Positions 9,348 through 31,441 of a DNA stretch of 64,000 nucleotides are shown in pieces. A program made the translations under genes and the position numbers. The first letter of the stretch is position 1. The number at the start of each line of letters is the position of its first letter. A model generated the notes under the pieces. It was given only the letters and a program-made list of their open reading frames with translations. It did not search any database and was not told where the DNA came from. The stretch comes from Ferrimonas futtsuensis DSM 18154 (GTDB lineage: Bacteria; Pseudomonadota; Gammaproteobacteria; Enterobacterales; Shewanellaceae). The DNA lies in contig NZ_AUGL01000019.1 of NCBI RefSeq assembly GCF_000422645.1, positions 1 through 64,000 of the forward strand. Direction: 5' to 3'.

Positions 9348-9453
9348 TTGCCTGATAAATTAGCGTTAAACCTCTAAGCTATCGGCAGGGGGCGTAATGA
9401 CCGCATACGGCGGCGTTTCCACCTGATTCCGATAAGATATAACGGAGAACTAC

Positions 9454-23472: not shown

Positions 23473-24555
23473 GTGCGATTTTCCCCTGTGGCTGAGATCA
23501 GCCGAAGTGCCCTGTTGCACAACCTGGGCCGGCTGCGCCAACTGGCGCCCGGCGCAAAGGTCATGGCGGTGGTGAAAGCCAACGCCTATGGCCATGGCCT
23601 GACCACATTGGCCCGATGGCTGGATGATGCCGGCGTCAATGGGTTTGGCATGGCCAGGCTGGAGGAGGCGCTCTGCTTGCGCCGCGAAGGGATCGGTGCC
23701 CGGATGCTGCTGCTTGAGGGAGTGTTCTCCGAAGAGGATCTGGAGCTGGCGGCCAGCCACGACTTGGAGGTGGCCATCCACGACAGTGAACAGGTGGCGA
23801 TCCTTGAGCGTGCCACCCTCAGCAAGCCGGTGCGCATCTGGCTGAAACTGGACACAGGCATGCACCGCCTGGGGGTTCAGCCCCATCAGTTTGAAGCCCT
23901 GTATCAGCGTTTGCGTGCCCTGGACAACATCCAGGGGGAGATCAACTTTATGACCCACTTCGCCGTGGCCGATGAAGCGGAGAACCCGGAAACCGCCCGG
24001 CAGATCGCCCTGTTCAATCAGCTCACCAAGAGTCTGCCTGGTGAGCGTACCCTGGCCAACTCTGCGGGTACTCTGGCCTGGCCGGCGTCCCATGGCCAGT
24101 GGGTGCGTGCCGGGCTGGCCTTGTACGGTGGCTCGCCGATGATTGCCGGGCGTCCGGAAGATTATGAACTTCAGCCGGTGATGACCATGAAAACCGCGGT
24201 GTTGGCAATACGGGAGCACAAGGCGGGCGATCCTGTGGGCTACGGTCAGAGTTGGCGCGCCAGCCGTGATACCCGTCTGGCGGTGATTGCCATGGGGTAT
24301 GGAGATGGCTATCCCCGTCACGCGGTCAGCGGTACGCCGGTGCTGATCAACGGCAAACGTTATCCCCTTGCTGGTCGTGTCTCCATGGATATGATCACCG
24401 TGGAGATCGGCGATGATCCGATCCAGGTGGGCGATTCTGTGGTGCTGTGGGGTAAGGGGCTGCCGGTGGAGGAGATTGCCGAATGTGCGTCCACCATCCC
24501 GTATGAGCTGCTGTGCAGCACCACTGCCCGGGTTCAATACCGTTACGTGGAGTAG
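23473..24555 (+). CDS. alr: Alanine racemase
   Basis: PLP enzyme that makes D-alanine for peptidoglycan. The PLP lysine is in VVKANAYGHG (residues 36-45), and the catalytic tyrosine region reads VGYGQSWRA. GDGYPR and SMDMITVEIGD complete the family signature. GTG start preceded by AAGGATCT. 360 aa. dnaB-alr linkage is conserved in gammaproteobacteria. Confidence 0.96.
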   Translation: MRFSPVAEISRSALLHNLGRLRQLAPGAKVMAVVKANAYGHGLTTLARWLDDAGVNGFGMARLEEALCLRREGIGARMLLLEGVFSEEDLELAASHDLEVAIHDSEQVAILERATLSKPVRIWLKLDTGMHRLGVQPHQFEALYQRLRALDNIQGEINFMTHFAVADEAENPETARQIALFNQLTKSLPGERTLANSAGTLAWPASHGQWVRAGLALYGGSPMIAGRPEDYELQPVMTMKTAVLAIREHKAGDPVGYGQSWRASRDTRLAVIAMGYGDGYPRHAVSGTPVLINGKRYPLAGRVSMDMITVEIGDDPIQVGDSVVLWGKGLPVEEIAECASTIPYELLCSTTARVQYRYVE

Positions 24556-24698: not shown

Positions 24699-24715
24699 GA
24701 GCGCAAGGAATGCCT

Positions 24716-25351
24716 ATGACCCCCTTTTCAAAAATTCTCTTCTATCAGAGTGGCGAGCTGCCCAGCTCACTGCCCATGTTGTGTGCCACCTTGGGTATTC
24801 CGGTGGAGATGCACACCCTGGAGGACCCCCTCTCGCCCGAGCCTCAGGTCGACCCCCATACTCTGATTCTGGTGCCCTGGCAGGGGGGAATCGGCACCAG
24901 CGGCCTGCCTGACTGGGCCCGCCCCTGGCTGCCTCACAACGCCATGGTGCTGTACGATGTCAGAGAGCCTCAGGTGGACTCGGTGCAACTGTTGACTCTG
25001 GGCCTCAAGGGGCTGCTGTTCCAGGAGGAGCGGGTGGATATGACGCTGTCTGCGCTACGGGCTCTGATGCAGGGGGAGCTGTGGTTTTCCCGGGCGACCC
25101 TGGAAAAGGCGGTGACACGGATGATTGGCAGCCAGGTTCAGCTGCAAAAACGCCAGGAGCAGGAGAAACTGACCAACCGGGAGCAGAGCGTGGTACAGCT
25201 GGTGGCCCTGGGCGCCAGGAACAAGGAGATTGCCCGAGAGCTGTTTATCTCCGAATACACGGTGAAGGCGCATCTGGCCTCCATCTTCCGCAAGACCGAG
25301 ACCCGAAATCGGGTGGAGCTGGTGAGTAAGCTGGGTTTGAAATCAAGGTAG
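24716..25351 (+). CDS. CsgD/VpsT-like LuxR-family transcriptional regulator
   Basis: 211 aa. The start at 24,716 is preferred because AAGGA (24,705-24,709) is then 6 bases away; the ATG at 24,710 would touch it. The N-terminal half resembles a degenerate receiver domain (PHTLILVPWQ, AMVLYDVREP, GLLFQEERVDMTLSALRALM) without clear phosphorylation aspartates, as in CsgD. The C-terminal HTH (LTNREQSVVQLVALGARNKE, then LFISEYTVKAHL) is LuxR type. CsgD controls curli and cellulose, VpsT binds c-di-GMP. It converges on a csgE fragment, supporting a curli-type origin. Confidence 0.8.
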   Translation: MTPFSKILFYQSGELPSSLPMLCATLGIPVEMHTLEDPLSPEPQVDPHTLILVPWQGGIGTSGLPDWARPWLPHNAMVLYDVREPQVDSVQLLTLGLKGLLFQEERVDMTLSALRALMQGELWFSRATLEKAVTRMIGSQVQLQKRQEQEKLTNREQSVVQLVALGARNKEIARELFISEYTVKAHLASIFRKTETRNRVELVSKLGLKSR

Positions 25352-26244: not shown

Positions 26245-26273
26245 AAAAAAGGGGCCAGGCTTGGCCTGGCCCC
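26245..26273 (-). terminator. Strong minus-strand terminator
   Basis: Read on the minus strand: GGGGCCAGGC, short loop, GCCTGGCCCC and six T residues. It is about 110 bp beyond the end of the minus-strand gene at 26,382 and downstream of another smaller hairpin, so it is a second terminator or the end of a short RNA. Confidence 0.75.
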
Positions 26274-26381: not shown

Positions 26382-26942
26382 CTAGAGTCCCAGCATCTCC
26401 TCTTTCAGGTCATCGTCGAGAGGGTCGTCACCCAGCCAGATGCCCAGCAGTACCGAGCGGAACAGCTCACCCTCGACGGCCACCAGCTTGGTACCATTTT
26501 TCAGCAGTTCCACCGGCTGGCCGGGTATGGAGACGATCTGGAAGGTGTCGCCCTCACTGACCGGGGCGCTGAACGCCTGAGTGAATTCGGAGATCTGAGT
26601 TTTCAGCTCGGGAAGGTGTTTCCCGGCAGAACGGGCGAATCCGTCCTCCATGCTGGCGGTCATTTTTTCCGAGGTGATCATCGACGAGATGATGTCCAGT
26701 TGAATGGTGGTGGCGGTGCGTCCCTCCATCAACTCACCGGCGGGCAGACTCTCCTGGTTGTACAGGGAGCTGACATAAAGGTCCATGAAGAACTTGGATC
26801 GGATGCCGGCGCCTCGGTAGGGCATCTCGACACCGTCCAGTTTCAGGTTGTCGGCCAGCTCCACATCGGCCATGGTCACCGACCAGGCGGTGCTACTGAA
26901 GGCCAGGGAGAAGCAGAGGGAAAGCAGGGGCATTTTTTGCAT
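26382..26942 (-). CDS. Chalcone-isomerase-like secreted protein
   Basis: 186 aa with a signal peptide (PLLSLCFSLAFSSTAWS) and the chalcone isomerase-like fold marked by LKLDGVEMPYRGAGIRSKF, DLYVSSLY and the C-terminal GEGEL-like region VAVEGELFRSVLLGIWLGDD. Bacterial members of this family lack known isomerase activity and probably bind a lipid-like ligand in the periplasm. AAGGTGA lies 6 bases before the ATG. It is divergent from the membrane-protein operon at 27,281 and shares regulatory elements with it. A perfect FNR-type site is centred 41.5 bases before the transcription start I infer. Confidence 0.85.
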   Translation of the reverse strand: MQKMPLLSLCFSLAFSSTAWSVTMADVELADNLKLDGVEMPYRGAGIRSKFFMDLYVSSLYNQESLPAGELMEGRTATTIQLDIISSMITSEKMTASMEDGFARSAGKHLPELKTQISEFTQAFSAPVSEGDTFQIVSIPGQPVELLKNGTKLVAVEGELFRSVLLGIWLGDDPLDDDLKEEMLGL

Positions 26943-26975
26943 CTTGGGTCACCTTAATATATGGCCAGAATCCTC

Positions 26976-26995
26976 ATTAGAGTATTTGCTCTAAT
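26976..26995. promoter_or_regulatory. Palindrome ATTAGAG-N6-CTCTAAT (operator copy 1)
   Basis: Perfect 7-bp arms around TATTTG, 33 bases upstream of the 26,942 start. It overlaps a minus-strand -10-like TACTCT (26,979-26,984). The same palindrome recurs at 27,233 in front of the divergent gene. Confidence 0.7.
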
Positions 26996-27005
26996 CTATT
27001 TTTTA

Positions 27006-27019
27006 TTGATTTAAATCAA
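27006..27019. promoter_or_regulatory. Perfect FNR-type site
   Basis: TTGAT-TTAA-ATCAA matches the FNR/EtrA consensus TTGAT-N4-ATCAA exactly. Its centre (27,012.5) is 41.5 bp from a start point of about 26,971 predicted from the minus-strand TACTCT, the class II activation distance. It is 268 bp from the plus-strand gene. Confidence 0.78.
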
Positions 27020-27109
27020 TCTATTTTTCTAAAATGTTCGCTCATGTTAACGAATGGGGTTACCTGTCTGTCGGGGTGGTCAAATTTGGGTAAAAGCTTC
27101 AAATGAGAT

Positions 27110-27122
27110 TGTCAAATTGACA
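27110..27122. promoter_or_regulatory. Palindrome TGTCAA-A-TTGACA
   Basis: A perfect 13-bp palindrome in the middle of the divergent intergenic region. The factor is unknown to me; it could be chance in this AT-rich stretch. Confidence 0.35.
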
Positions 27123-27232
27123 GGCAGCTCTGTTTTGGGGTTAAAGAATCTGGTTCGAACCACATTGATGTTGGTTTAGAAAGTGGGCGGGAAATTTCTT
27201 GATCCTGGTCATGAAAATCGGCCAAACCAATG

Positions 27233-27252
27233 ATTAGAGTAAAAGCTCTAAA
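27233..27252. promoter_or_regulatory. Palindrome TTAGAG-N6-CTCTAA (operator copy 2)
   Basis: ATTAGAG, TAAAAG spacer, CTCTAAA: the same half-sites and spacing as copy 1 apart from the last base, 28 bases before the ATG at 27,281. Confidence 0.7.
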
Positions 27253-27280
27253 GTGAGTCTGGATAAATTCTGAGGTTGGT

Positions 27281-28204
27281 ATGGCTATCCCGATTTCTAC
27301 CTATGTAGTTTCCATGGTGGGCTACATTGTATTTCTGCTAGTTCTCGTCGAAATGATGAGGCGAACACCAAGATTTACCTTTCTGTTCTGGTTGTTGTCT
27401 TTATTAACTGCCCCTCTCTGGGCAGACAATTTGGATGGCTGGTTCCGTTGGGCTAAAACCGTCAGTGTGCTTATTCCAACGGCATTAATTGTTGGTACCG
27501 CACGAATTGCATATCTCTATTATGAAAATCCAAATCGCATACTTAAGTTTTTCCGAAAAGACTGGGTGTTGTGGGTTTTGTACGGCGTTCTTTTCCTCAA
27601 TATCGCTGAGGCAACCGTCAAGGATCTGGTGACAGAAAACTACTTTAACTTCATCGCAGGTTGCGTGCTGCTGGTGACCATGCCCTTCCCCAAGTACAAG
27701 AATGGCAAGCGCCAGTACTGGCTTATCGGCAAGGATGCACCCAATGACCTGCTGTTCTACTCCACAGCGTCCTGGAACTTCCTCTACACCACCTGGAACA
27801 TGGCGTTCGTCTATGGTGAGAACCCCGGGTACTTCGCCAGTTCCTTCTGCATCCTGATGGCCGCAGAGCTCTACCCTGTCTTCAAGAAGCGCCCCGAGCT
27901 CTACATCATTGCCCGGGTCTACACCCTGGCGTTCCACATCCTGGTCCGTGCCATGGGCGACCCCTTCGCCAAGGTGATGGATTCCACCCACTGGGCCAAC
28001 GATCAGGTACTGCTCTACTGGGGCGTAGCCAACGCGGTACTGCACGTTGCTTACCTGTTCTGGTACTTCAAGAAGTTCCGTCAGCCCAATGCGGAGGGTG
28101 GCAATGAACCGCCCTATGGGGACCGGCAACCGCCGCTGGTGGTGGACGCCAGAACCGAGGAGAGCAGCCCGCTGCTTCCAGGGCAAAAACCGGTGACTGC
28201 CTGA
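27281..28204 (+). CDS. Polytopic membrane protein A (DUF5692-like), 307 aa
   Basis: Eight or nine membrane segments are readable, for example YVVSMVGYIVFLLVLVE, FLFWLLSLLTAPLWA, VLWVLYGVLFLNIAEA and LYWGVANAVLHVAYLFWYF. Three motifs are shared with the products at 28,251 and 30,418: W-F-x-W-A-K-x-x-S-V, LNIAEA...D, and WN...FVY. The C-terminal 45 residues are polar and Pro/Glu-rich, probably cytoplasmic. The first third of the gene is more AT-rich than the rest. I think this is the DUF5692 family but cannot verify it; the function is unknown. First gene of the operon. Confidence 0.8.
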   Translation: MAIPISTYVVSMVGYIVFLLVLVEMMRRTPRFTFLFWLLSLLTAPLWADNLDGWFRWAKTVSVLIPTALIVGTARIAYLYYENPNRILKFFRKDWVLWVLYGVLFLNIAEATVKDLVTENYFNFIAGCVLLVTMPFPKYKNGKRQYWLIGKDAPNDLLFYSTASWNFLYTTWNMAFVYGENPGYFASSFCILMAAELYPVFKKRPELYIIARVYTLAFHILVRAMGDPFAKVMDSTHWANDQVLLYWGVANAVLHVAYLFWYFKKFRQPNAEGGNEPPYGDRQPPLVVDARTEESSPLLPGQKPVTA

Positions 28205-28216
28205 GTTTACTGAAAT

Positions 28217-28239
28217 GCGGGGCAGAGCATCTGCCCCGC
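28217..28239 (+). other. Intergenic hairpin between membrane proteins A and B
   Basis: GCGGGGCAGA-GCA-TCTGCCCCGC, 11 bases before the next ATG. There is no T run, so it may be an mRNA stability or processing element rather than a terminator. Confidence 0.6.
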
Positions 28240-28250
28240 GGAGAATCGAA

Positions 28251-29423
28251 ATGAAATCCTTTTTTAAACTAGTTTGCGCCTGGCTGCTGGCCCTGGTGCT
28301 GGCTCCGACCGTGCTGGCCAACGACCTGGATGGAGTGTCCATCGGCGACCAGTTTGCCGGCCAGACATGGCAGGGCACCATGGATGGTGACCCCGGTCAG
28401 GGCAGCATCTTCTTCAGAATGGAGTTTGCCCCTGACCATCAGGTCACCATCACCAAGCAATCCGGCGGTCACAACCAGGTCGAGGTGAAGCAGTGGCAGA
28501 TTGATGGCGACCGCTTGATCGTCACCAGCACTGCCGGCCAGCAGATCGACAACTTCGATGATGCCGAGATGACCGTGGTCTCTGCCGACCGCTTTCACTA
28601 TGCCAAGGAGGGCAAGAAGTTCATCGGCCATAAGTGGATTGAGGCCCGGGCCTATGGCCATGTGCTGCTGGTGCTGATTGGCCTGATGGTGATGAACGAG
28701 ATCTGTCGCCGCTACAAATGGCCCACGGTGATCATCTTCTTCGTTCTGCCCATCGTCTTGATTCCTCTGTGGGCCAGTTATGGCGTCAGCTACTGGTTTA
28801 AGTGGGTCAAACTCTACTCGGTGGTCGGGGCGTGTGTGCTGTTTACCCTAATCCGTTACACCAAGGTTGGGGAGATGAAGTGGGCCAAGTTCTGTGCCGC
28901 CGGTTTCCTGGCACTGAACATCTCAGAGGCGGTATTGCAGGACTTCAGCATGGGCTATACCGCCAATGTGCTGAATGCCATCGGTGGCATCTTCTCCATC
29001 ATTACTCTGACGGGCTGGGCGCAGATTCAGGCGGCCAAAACTAAGGAGAAGGACATGATCTGGCCGGCCATGACCACCTTCTGGATCATCGCCTATGACG
29101 TGTGGAACTTTGCCTTCGTCTACTTGAACTTCCCCGGTTCCGCCACGGCCCAGTTCATGGTGCTGACTGCGGCCACCATTCCGTCTCTGCTGATCACCCG
29201 AGGCACCTGGTTGCAGGCGCGGGCGTTCACCCTGGCCCTCTCCTTTATGTACTACTTCACCAATCCGGCGATGTACGAAAGTAATGTGGTGATGTTGCCA
29301 AGAAACGATGAATTAATGTTGGCGGTTGGACTTTTGAGCTTCGTCCTTAATTCCATCCTCTTCTATCAGGTTTTCGGCGCCAAATGGAGAAATTACCGGT
29401 TGAAACAAGAGATGGCGAGTTAG
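28251..29423 (+). CDS. Membrane protein B: periplasmic domain fused to DUF5692-like membrane domain
   Basis: 390 aa. A signal peptide (LVCAWLLALVLAPTVLA) is followed by a beta-rich soluble domain of about 110 residues (TWQGTMDGDPGQGSIFFRME, KQWQIDGDRLIVTSTAGQQI), lipocalin-like in pattern, then a membrane part homologous to protein A and D with SYWFKWVKLYSVV, LNISEAVLQDF and FWIIAYDVWNFAFVYLN. The start at 28,251 gives the signal peptide; GGAGAATCG precedes it. A fused extracytoplasmic sensor or ligand-binding domain is my inference. The last 150 bases are AT-rich. Confidence 0.8.
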   Translation: MKSFFKLVCAWLLALVLAPTVLANDLDGVSIGDQFAGQTWQGTMDGDPGQGSIFFRMEFAPDHQVTITKQSGGHNQVEVKQWQIDGDRLIVTSTAGQQIDNFDDAEMTVVSADRFHYAKEGKKFIGHKWIEARAYGHVLLVLIGLMVMNEICRRYKWPTVIIFFVLPIVLIPLWASYGVSYWFKWVKLYSVVGACVLFTLIRYTKVGEMKWAKFCAAGFLALNISEAVLQDFSMGYTANVLNAIGGIFSIITLTGWAQIQAAKTKEKDMIWPAMTTFWIIAYDVWNFAFVYLNFPGSATAQFMVLTAATIPSLLITRGTWLQARAFTLALSFMYYFTNPAMYESNVVMLPRNDELMLAVGLLSFVLNSILFYQVFGAKWRNYRLKQEMAS

Positions 29424-29471
29424 TTATTGGTTACGACGCATATAAATAATTAAATGATTCTGGAGTTGATA

Positions 29472-30308
29472 ATGAAAAAGTTCACTGCATTAGCGATGGC
29501 CGCCCTAAGTTTGTCTGCATTTGCTTCTGAAGAAGCGCCTGATATGGGTAATCCAACCGAAGTTTATACCTATTTGGGTGCCTCTTATGGTAGCGAAGGT
29601 GCCAACCTGAAAGGGATGATGGCCCTGAGTGAAGATAAAGGAGAGTTTGATCAGAAGACCGGTATTCTGTTTGAAGTTAAAAACATCTTCAATGAAGGCG
29701 ATAAAACCCCCAAGTTTGGTGGTATTCAATATGGCCAATACCCAGATGGCAGCATTGGTCCCGTGGGCACCAAGACCAAAGGGTATGCCAGCAACCGCTC
29801 CTACCGCCTGCGTTACGGCACCATCAACACCAAGAACGGCCTGGGCTTCTCCGTTGACGCGGTGTTTGCCGACCATCCGTTCTTCGGGTCTACCTCTGTG
29901 ATTCAGGCGGGCCCTGTGGCCACCATTCCCGTTGGGGAAGACATCTTGATCTGGCCCATCCTCTATGTGGGTGCGGTGATCATGGACGACAACATTCAGG
30001 ATCTGAATCCTGAATGGCCCGATTCCAGCTCCAGTGGTGTGGATATCGCCTCCACCATCGGGACCGCCATGGTCTACGCCAAGTGGACCATTTCCGACAA
30101 CTGGTGGACCCTGGCCAGCTACCGCTACACCATGGAGCTGAACGGTAAGTCCTGGGACGACGACGTGATGGATGGCGGTCTGCAGATGGATGCCACCGAG
30201 TTTGAGATCTCCCTGGCCTACCAGCTGACCAAGAAGCAGAACGTCCGCGCCTATTACAGTACCGCCAAGGACGACAGCTACTGGTTGGAATACAACTACG
30301 CCTTCTAA
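29472..30308 (+). CDS. Outer-membrane beta-barrel protein, 278 aa
   Basis: Signal peptide MKKFTALAMAALSLSAFA, then a sequence of alternating strands with aromatic girdle residues and a C-terminal DDSYWLEYNYAF ending in phenylalanine, the BAM insertion signature. I do not recognise the family. TGGAGT lies 5 bases before the ATG at 29,472. It is embedded between genes for two paralogous inner-membrane proteins, suggesting it works with them, perhaps as the outer-membrane partner. A hairpin follows the gene. Confidence 0.8.
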   Translation: MKKFTALAMAALSLSAFASEEAPDMGNPTEVYTYLGASYGSEGANLKGMMALSEDKGEFDQKTGILFEVKNIFNEGDKTPKFGGIQYGQYPDGSIGPVGTKTKGYASNRSYRLRYGTINTKNGLGFSVDAVFADHPFFGSTSVIQAGPVATIPVGEDILIWPILYVGAVIMDDNIQDLNPEWPDSSSSGVDIASTIGTAMVYAKWTISDNWWTLASYRYTMELNGKSWDDDVMDGGLQMDATEFEISLAYQLTKKQNVRAYYSTAKDDSYWLEYNYAF

Positions 30309-30317
30309 CCCGGAAAC

Positions 30318-30352
30318 GCCGGCAGAGCCTCGTCCGTAGCTCTGCCGGCTTT
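30318..30352 (+). terminator. Hairpin between barrel gene and membrane protein D
   Basis: GCCGGCAGAGC, 10-nt loop, GCTCTGCCGGC and TTT. The T run is short, so partial termination or 3'-end protection of the upstream message is likely. Confidence 0.55.
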
Positions 30353-30417
30353 CAGGAGGGGCGGTGTCATCCTCAATCCCCATTCCGCTCCTCCGCCCTA
30401 CCTTGCGAGGTGGAACC

Positions 30418-31335
30418 ATGTCTCTGTTTGAACCCATCCCCCTGCACGCCTGGATCGCCTTCCTCGCCGTTCTCGGTGCCCTGATTCTGCTCAATGAGAT
30501 CTCCCGGCGCAGCATCTGGGCCGGCATCGGCTGTTTCATTGTTCTGCCGCTGATCCTGACCTTTACCGTCTGGCCTCACACCACCACTGCCGAGGGATCC
30601 AGTGTGGGCACCTGGTTCCACTGGGCCAAGGTGTATTCGGTGTTGGCAGGCTGCATCGGTTTTATGGCACTCCGCTATATCCCGGGCGCGGCCCAGAAAA
30701 AGTGGGTGCTGATGTTTCCACCGGCGATTCTGGCCATCAACATCGCCGAGGCGGTGGTGCGCGACTTCCAGTGCTACAGCTTCAACGGCCTGGTGGACGG
30801 GGTGATGATCACCGGAGGCTCCTGGAACATCATGAACGGCATCGCCGGTATCCTGAATATCCTCACCATCTGTGGCTGGGCCGGGATCTTCATCAGCCGG
30901 GACAAGTTCAAGGATATGCTCTGGCCCGACATGCTGTGGTTCTGGATCATCGCCTACGATCTGTGGAATTTCGCCTATGTCTACAACTGCGTCGGTGACC
31001 ACGCCTTCTATGCCGGCGCCGCCCTGCTGCTCTCCTGCACCATCCCGGCGTTTTTCATGCGTCGCGGAGCCTGGCTGCAACACCGGGCCCACACCCTGGC
31101 GTTCTGGATGATGTTTGTCATGTGCTTCCCAAGCTTTGTGGACACCTCCAGGTTCGCGGTGAAGGCGTCCGGTGATCCTGCGGCCCTGTGGCTTGTGTCG
31201 GCCATCGCCCTGGCAGCCAACGTGGCCCTGGCCATCTATCAGGTGCACCGCATTCGCAGCGCTCGTCGCCATCCTCTCAAGGATGAGCTGTATGAGCACC
31301 TTCCCGCCTATCAGCACGTGGCGTCCGCCCGCTGA
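30418..31335 (+). CDS. Polytopic membrane protein D (DUF5692-like), 305 aa
   Basis: Third paralog of the set, with GTWFHWAKVYSVLAGC, LAINIAEAVVRDFQ and FWIIAYDLWNFAYVYN matching proteins A and B; it lacks the soluble N-terminal domain of B. About eight membrane segments. Start at 30,418 chosen from GAGGTGG five bases upstream and from loss of a non-hydrophobic 18-residue extension. It begins 109 bases after the barrel gene, behind a hairpin, and may be expressed at a different level. Function unknown. Confidence 0.8.
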   Translation: MSLFEPIPLHAWIAFLAVLGALILLNEISRRSIWAGIGCFIVLPLILTFTVWPHTTTAEGSSVGTWFHWAKVYSVLAGCIGFMALRYIPGAAQKKWVLMFPPAILAINIAEAVVRDFQCYSFNGLVDGVMITGGSWNIMNGIAGILNILTICGWAGIFISRDKFKDMLWPDMLWFWIIAYDLWNFAYVYNCVGDHAFYAGAALLLSCTIPAFFMRRGAWLQHRAHTLAFWMMFVMCFPSFVDTSRFAVKASGDPAALWLVSAIALAANVALAIYQVHRIRSARRHPLKDELYEHLPAYQHVASAR

Positions 31336-31371: not shown

Positions 31372-31410
31372 CACGCCAACCCATTGAGAAATGGCCCATC
31401 ACTCCCTTTG

Positions 31411-31441
31411 CCCCGCCGGCGATGTTGGCGGGGTTTTCTTT
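31411..31441 (+). terminator. Terminator of the membrane-protein operon
   Basis: CCCCGCC, 9-nt loop, GGCGGGG and TTTTCTTT. Confidence 0.85.

Follow-up and report, generated by a model that had tools for sequence, protein, structure and literature searches.

A DUF5692-containing envelope gene module of Ferrimonas futtsuensis and its relatives, with a possible role in handling a long-chain hydrophobic compound

We know of no function for the protein family DUF5692 (PF18948), nor of any hydrogenation activity among its members. In a full-text search the sole mention of the family by name was as a gene neighbor, in the accessible text of a study of the isr locus (IsrA-HypA-HypB) of Acetobacterium wieringae, which encodes a putative isoprene reductase; in that text DUF5692 is a frequent neighbor of IsrA homologs, with a co-occurrence of 0.4 near 988 of them, and an oleate hydratase is found in two Acetobacterium neighborhoods (PMC10134865). 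Here, a window of 64,000 nucleotides from Ferrimonas futtsuensis DSM 18154 (NZ_AUGL01000019.1, positions 1 to 64,000; contig C16 of a 4.3 Mb genome in 39 contigs) was analyzed. It holds a gene for a chalcone-isomerase-like (CHI-like) protein on the minus strand and, on the plus strand, genes for two membrane proteins (A and B), a probable outer-membrane beta-barrel and a third membrane protein (D), all five being present where the initial annotation had placed them (Table 1). D over its full length and the membrane domain of B are members of DUF5692 above the family cut-off. The locus differs from the family as described in that B carries a lipocalin-like fusion, the operon adds the barrel and the CHI-like gene, and A is missed by the family model. 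Neither the operator described below nor the B fusion or the operon was encountered in the literature surveyed, in which only DUF5692 was sought by name; the available text of PMC5343134 does not contain TTAGAG, and that of PMC6463001 does not mention Moritella.

Other described systems resemble single parts of the locus. Proteins of the GOST/Wntless type are lipid carriers, although the resemblance of the DUF5692 core to them ties with that to many seven-transmembrane proteins. The CHI-like protein belongs to the fold family of the fatty-acid-binding protein AtFAP1 (4DOO), which was the nearest Protein Data Bank (PDB) sequence to its family profile (E = 5e-4); unlike AtFAP1 it is bacterial and encoded in an envelope operon, with a signal-peptide-like start (a hydrophobic stretch at amino acids (aa) 4–24 in a hydropathy scan). 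Lipocalin-like periplasmic domains are found in ToxS, NlpE and TP0435, with 10–13% sequence identity to the domain of B, which is here fused to a multi-pass DUF5692 protein. The barrel of the operon does not match the FadL/OMPP1 porins, PF03349 being absent from its Pfam families at E ≤ 1.

On the basis of the paralogous membrane proteins, the lipocalin-like domain, the CHI fold, the probable barrel and the co-regulated genes, we tentatively propose, with slightly less than even confidence, that A, B, the barrel and the CHI-like protein, together with D, constitute an undescribed envelope module that acts as a carrier for a hydrophobic compound, long-chain and probably unsaturated. The locus in the window would be the Ferrimonas form of this module, and an acyl chain, an ester or a hydrocarbon may be its ligand.

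The initial annotation had read A, B and D as paralogs from shared motifs, and profile comparison bore this out. The motifs WF[HRK]W[AV]K, [LI]NI[AS]EA...D and WN[FM]A[FY]VY are common to all three proteins, and 27 positions are invariant across 59 aligned rows (53 D-type, three B and three A). The D family was aligned by hhalign with the B family at 100% (E = 4.8e-59) and with the A family at 99.0% (E = 7.4e-18). Against the PF18948 cut-off of 27 bits, D scored 465.1 and residues 135–374 of B scored 191.5; no Pfam family, PF18948 included, was found for the A of the window at E ≤ 1, and its relative A2, on contig C10 of the same genome, scores 46 bits with DUF5692. Judged by these profiles, A is a divergent DUF5692 relative missed by Pfam and A, B and D are all homologous. 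The AlphaFold2 model of D (predicted local distance difference test 90.3; predicted template modeling score 0.88) found no strong fold match in the PDB, and a PDB sequence search gave no match at E ≤ 10 for either the A/B/D profile or the N-terminal domain of B. By modeling and fold comparison the latter was predicted to form an eight-stranded lipocalin-like barrel, which accords with the periplasmic beta-rich domain previously expected there.

The conservation of the neighborhood was surveyed in 394 genomes "drawn evenly" from one order of the Genome Taxonomy Database, so the spread found is a lower bound. The A-family profile matches 12 of these genomes, in 5 of 115 genera. A, B and the barrel are contiguous in all 16 inspected genomes with A and B (seven Ferrimonas, one Shewanella, seven Moritella and G111), and the CHI-like gene adjoins them in 14, the exceptions being G040 (L137) and G182 (L139). 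A further genome, G294, has A, D, the barrel and an alpha/beta-hydrolase, with no B seen. Within Ferrimonas, DUF5692 occurs in 7 of 14 genomes and the same seven have the barrel; one CHI copy is found in all 14, and a second copy lies beside A in the seven with DUF5692. An earlier claim that the CHI-like gene is divergent from the operon holds for Ferrimonas; elsewhere, where it is adjacent (7/9), it is the last operon gene on the same strand. D does not keep its operon position outside Ferrimonas: it lies inside the operon in five of the seven Ferrimonas genomes with A and B, and A, the barrel and CHI are near D in just the two Ferrimonas loci among the best 79 D loci of the species collection. 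Going by gene order, D is a Ferrimonas addition to the module and is elsewhere usually solitary. For A, B, the barrel and CHI, neither of the two outcomes that would have refuted the initial view, a lack of homology or of conserved neighbors, was observed. This supports the view of a conserved gene set, not described before, that reaches from the inner membrane through the periplasm and probably into the outer membrane.

An 18-bp palindrome, TTAGAGYWWWWRCTCTAA (TTAGAG-N6-CTCTAA), occurs in the CHI-A intergenic region with one copy before each of the two genes, an arrangement which suggests that CHI and A are under common control, as had been supposed. Three matches with at most one mismatch were found in the 64 kb of the window against 0.06 expected, a number reached by none of 100 shuffles; the third, at 9360, is unrelated to the module. 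This operator is also seen upstream of A operons in Ferrimonas, Shewanella, Moritella and G111, and upstream of A2-B2, the A2-B2-ole cluster described below, B3 and D2. Among 31 upstream regions (420 bp each, before A, A2, B2, B3, D, D2 and D3 genes) it is exact in 10, within one mismatch in 18 and within two in 26, counts in which related genomes are not independent and for which the YWWWWR core pattern was widened after relatives had been seen. In the same regions at two mismatches, scrambled-arm palindromes gave a mean of 0.14 (largest 5) and Markov shuffles 0. The misses are both L144 genes, the A2 of L148 and the D3 genes of L163 and L166. Allowing two mismatches, the site was found upstream of 27 of the 35 A/B/D-type genes that were checked in this group of gammaproteobacteria, but at only 1 of 77 D loci of other organisms (L020). 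It was therefore rejected as a signature common to DUF5692 genes in general; at the level of sequence it is characteristic of the A/B modules and D2 of this group and not of the family overall.

An anaerobic role had also been put forward. In its favor are the IsrA link and a perfect FNR-type box in the intergenic region (0.03 expected; present in 3 of 100 shuffles). The exact box is kept in just 2 of the 31 promoters, those of the window and of L018, so FNR or anaerobic control was dropped as the main signal and anaerobic control of the module is weakly indicated by the sequence.

The operator extends beyond the module. Across 24 scanned genomes, 113 sites with at most one mismatch were detected, compared with 14 for a reversed control pattern. 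Five of these are in the F. futtsuensis genome, one each before CHI, A and A2-B2 and the other two before genes for alpha/beta-hydrolases. When 51 regions around further sites (18 + 20 + 13, a subset of the listed sites) were examined, the site was found within 500 bp upstream of genes for alpha/beta-hydrolases (10 regions), OEP efflux proteins (10), FadL (7) and HypB (3), and once each of genes for CHI, a methyl-accepting chemotaxis protein (MCP), DUF1302, a short-chain dehydrogenase/reductase (SDR) and a TetR protein; Pfam identities were obtained for ten reference or target genes. The OEP genes are followed by HlyD- and ABC2-like genes where read through, HlyD being scanned in L205 only. 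Sites are also present in Ferrimonas genomes lacking DUF5692 (L207–L209, L218 and L252), and the regulon is thus independent of the module. Because the operator is common to genes for oily molecules (hydrolases, FadL, pumps, hypB-isrA with its putative ene-reductase, and the ole cluster), the hydrophobic ligand that had first been offered as speculation is well supported for the A-B module.

The ties to unsaturated hydrocarbons were found through the A2-B2 pair (L006 in this genome) and hypB. In a Moritella-type locus (L141:2048-9376), A2-B2 is directly upstream of, and co-directional with, an ole cluster whose OleC (959.9 bits, cut-off 850), OleD (612.9, cut-off 580) and OleA-like 3-oxoacyl synthase (502.9, cut-off 285) are recognized, the hydrolase in the place of OleB passing no cut-off. 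In a second (L143:8740-15071), the ole cluster is immediately preceded by B2, and A2 is present as a fragment only; the operator copies before both clusters are exact. A third B type, B3, is solitary in L168 and L174. The DUF5692 pair before an oleABCD-type cluster is, from its position, a candidate for an unrecognized part of the bacterial long-chain olefin pathway. As to the isr locus, the operator precedes hypB in three Moritella-type genomes and, with two mismatches, in F. aestuarii. It lies upstream of hypB-isrA-hypA with one mismatch in L261 (4252-11025, with a second isrA-like gene) and with two in L260 (6930-10705). Both IsrA and HypB were found in 5 of the 79 D loci (flanks up to 10 kb), four from Chloroflexi and one from Moritella. 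G132 and all seven Moritella-type genomes with the module carry PfaA, which G111 and G294 lack.

A number of observations weigh against the proposed module and its ligand. OleC over the NCBIfam cut-off and PfaA were each found in 0 of 14 Ferrimonas genomes, F. futtsuensis included, which sets the locus apart from the OleABCD pathway and led to the rejection of polyunsaturated fatty acid or olefin synthesis as its function in Ferrimonas. Full-length IsrA was found in only 1 of the 14 (G001); the best match in the F. futtsuensis genome has 36% identity over residues 354–830 of 896, and the locus differs in this from isr. As none of the three was found in the F. futtsuensis genome by these criteria, the link to unsaturated hydrocarbons comes from relatives. 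IsrA was not seen in 74 of the 79 D loci, and 77 of them have no A, barrel or CHI, some of these loci being short. Beyond the scarcity of the operator at D loci elsewhere, only one of four solitary D genes from the same genera (L167, L171, L172 and L173) has a site, with two mismatches. A target gene was found in 35 of the 51 regions and none in 16, with target families picked after the regions had been seen, orthologous regions of related genomes counted separately and 15 of the 35 matches being the reference genes themselves, so that 20 of 51 are independent. The model of the B N-terminal domain is resembled as closely by designed barrels as by natural ones, and CHI-fold proteins, yeast relatives among them, can bind haem according to the accessible text of PMC9996372. 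The outer-membrane barrel scores 16.3 bits with PF13505, below the cut-off of 28.7; judged by eye it has a signal-like start and a ...YNYAF end, but a hydropathy scan left the start unflagged and marked one internal stretch (aa 149–170).

We envisage A and B, joined by D in Ferrimonas, as nine-helix proteins of the inner membrane whose invariant core of polar, charged and tryptophan residues (E27, R30, K71, N108, E111, N137, N140, W176, Y180, W183, N184 and R223 in D numbering) may hold the ligand. The lipocalin-like periplasmic barrel of B and the soluble CHI-like protein would then hand the ligand between the membranes, and the beta-barrel would move it across the outer membrane; from these parts we infer the class of ligand, the carrier role and the direction of movement. 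One regulator reading TTAGAG-N6-CTCTAA would control the module along with FadL porins, an OEP-HlyD-ABC2 pump, alpha/beta-hydrolases and a chemoreceptor. In some relatives its targets would also include oleABCD, for olefin synthesis, and the HypB/IsrA reductase.

A carrier role is favored over an enzymatic one, which is the main rival although rather unlikely. In that case DUF5692 proteins would be membrane-embedded enzymes altering unsaturated lipids or hydrocarbons (of an isomerase, hydratase, reductase or hydrolase type), with the barrel and the CHI-like protein supplying substrate. Strong conservation would suit an enzyme: the best 79 D loci, from several phyla, share 62–87% identity with D. 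Many of the 27 invariant residues are polar or aromatic, but no His or Cys is among them, and no metal, haem or Fe-S site is thus obvious. The genetic ties to synthesis (the ole cluster) and reduction (HypB-IsrA) also speak for catalysis, as does the presence of TetR-, LysR- or MarR-like genes (named by eye) near D in many genomes, including those of one-membrane bacteria. Against it, the PDB sequence search reported above found no match and no enzyme family is prominent among the 50 fold matches listed for D. Four other neighbors of D elsewhere (a histidine kinase, two peptidases and an aconitase) look unrelated.

It is improbable that the module is a general unit of envelope-stress or solvent/bile tolerance, co-regulated with efflux and porins and moving no specific ligand: the operator before OEP (10/51 regions) and FadL (7/51) genes and the ToxS/NlpE-like domain would fit, yet the ole and HypB-IsrA links would be left unexplained, as would D genes standing alone in Gram-positive genomes. 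Least probable is that A, B and D are signal receptors which sense lipid through a seven-helix receptor-like core and an extracytoplasmic ligand-binding barrel and signal to partners.

The regulator of the carrier module was not found in a search in which two TetR candidates were tested across genomes. One is a Moritella-type TetR gene (L242:3143-3868), which lies just 3' of an alr-like gene and is itself preceded by an operator-like site. It turned up in 7 of the 22 genomes examined, and these seven belong to a single genus; the window has an alr-like gene at 23473-24555, 2.7 kb from the module. The other belongs to an SDR - SRPBCC-like - TetR locus (names by eye) of several Ferrimonas genomes (L249:3182-6001; L263–L275), which adjoins hydrolase- and wax-ester-synthase-like genes and has an operator-like site before SDR in one genome (L249). 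Relatives of this TetR occur in 26 of 27 genomes, but among 30 of their loci, which do not extend to the SDR promoter, none has a site with up to one mismatch and one has a site with two. A LuxR-type gene at 24710-25351 was set aside, as it is near the operon also in L017 and L145 yet on varying sides.

The features of the locus are collected in Table 1. The terminator pattern scan gave 8 sites in the region against 5.3 expected from shuffles. Between barrel and D, the 126-nt stretch 30300-30425 has a folding energy of -54.3 kcal/mol (z -4.13); the strong hairpin there lacks a clear T run, so D may be expressed apart.

Table 1. Predicted genes and signals of the DUF5692 locus, in window coordinates.
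Feature	Position	Strand or location	Basis or remark
Terminator-like hairpin with T run	26251..26273	(-)	3' of CHI-like gene; pattern scan, 10-pair stem, TTTTTT
CHI-like protein (Chalcone_3), signal-peptide-like start, 186 aa	26382..26942	(-)	PF16036, 152.4 bits, cut-off 27
Operator copy 1, TTAGAGTATTTGCTCTAA	26977..26994	34 bp 5' of CHI start	kept in relatives
FNR-type box, TTGATTTAAATCAA	27006..27019		exact match
Operator copy 2, TTAGAGTAAAAGCTCTAA	27234..27251	29 bp 5' of A start	kept in relatives
A, polytopic membrane protein of divergent DUF5692 type, 307 aa	27281..28204	(+)	profile homology to D
B, signal-peptide-like start, lipocalin-like domain (about aa 28-130) and DUF5692 membrane domain, 390 aa	28251..29423	(+)	PF18948, model, fold comparison
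Probable outer-membrane beta-barrel, 278 aa	29472..30308	(+)	sub-threshold PF13505; contiguity with A-B
Strong hairpin in barrel-D gap, possible attenuator	30313..30353	(+)	fold energy
D, canonical DUF5692 protein (305 aa) with nine long helices predicted	30418..31335	(+)	PF18948; AlphaFold2
Terminator-like hairpin with T run	31410..31434	(+)	3' of D; pattern scan

Two further observations concern genes beside operator-like sites. The first is an MCP gene whose product has a hydrophobic N-terminal region (L133:11332-12855; L233:1341-2813); it lies 3' of the operon in Shewanella and Moritella, and in one Ferrimonas genome it stands away from the operon behind an operator-like site of its own. 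The second is a near-operator, TTAGAGYAAATACTTTAA or similar, which occurs beside a polA-like gene (by eye) in Ferrimonas (L210:4148, L211:3900 and L219:4022), these three sites being among the 16 regions without a target; strings akin to it are found in Shewanella genomes. It may be another element (Spot 42 region) rather than part of the regulon.

DUF5692 is widespread, six short D patterns having retrieved 511 stretches encoding relatives in the species collection, and strongly conserved between phyla, and with this set of genes it gains a first testable role. A broader reading, which we consider doubtful, is that the family founds a new class of membrane carrier or receptor for unsaturated long-chain lipids. 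Its receptor-like helical core would stand alone in many one-membrane bacteria and would have been duplicated and fused to a lipocalin-like domain in marine gammaproteobacteria. There, with CHI and the barrel, it would form part of a complete lipid route from inner membrane to surface, under one operator that extends to genes of efflux, FadL uptake and chemotaxis and, among relatives, to those of olefin synthesis and C=C reduction. Through its operator the A-B branch acquires a regulon, and with it a testable class of ligand. The operator also connects this branch with olefin biosynthesis and with the IsrA reductases, themselves unexplained, and leads to the prediction of an envelope route of four genes.

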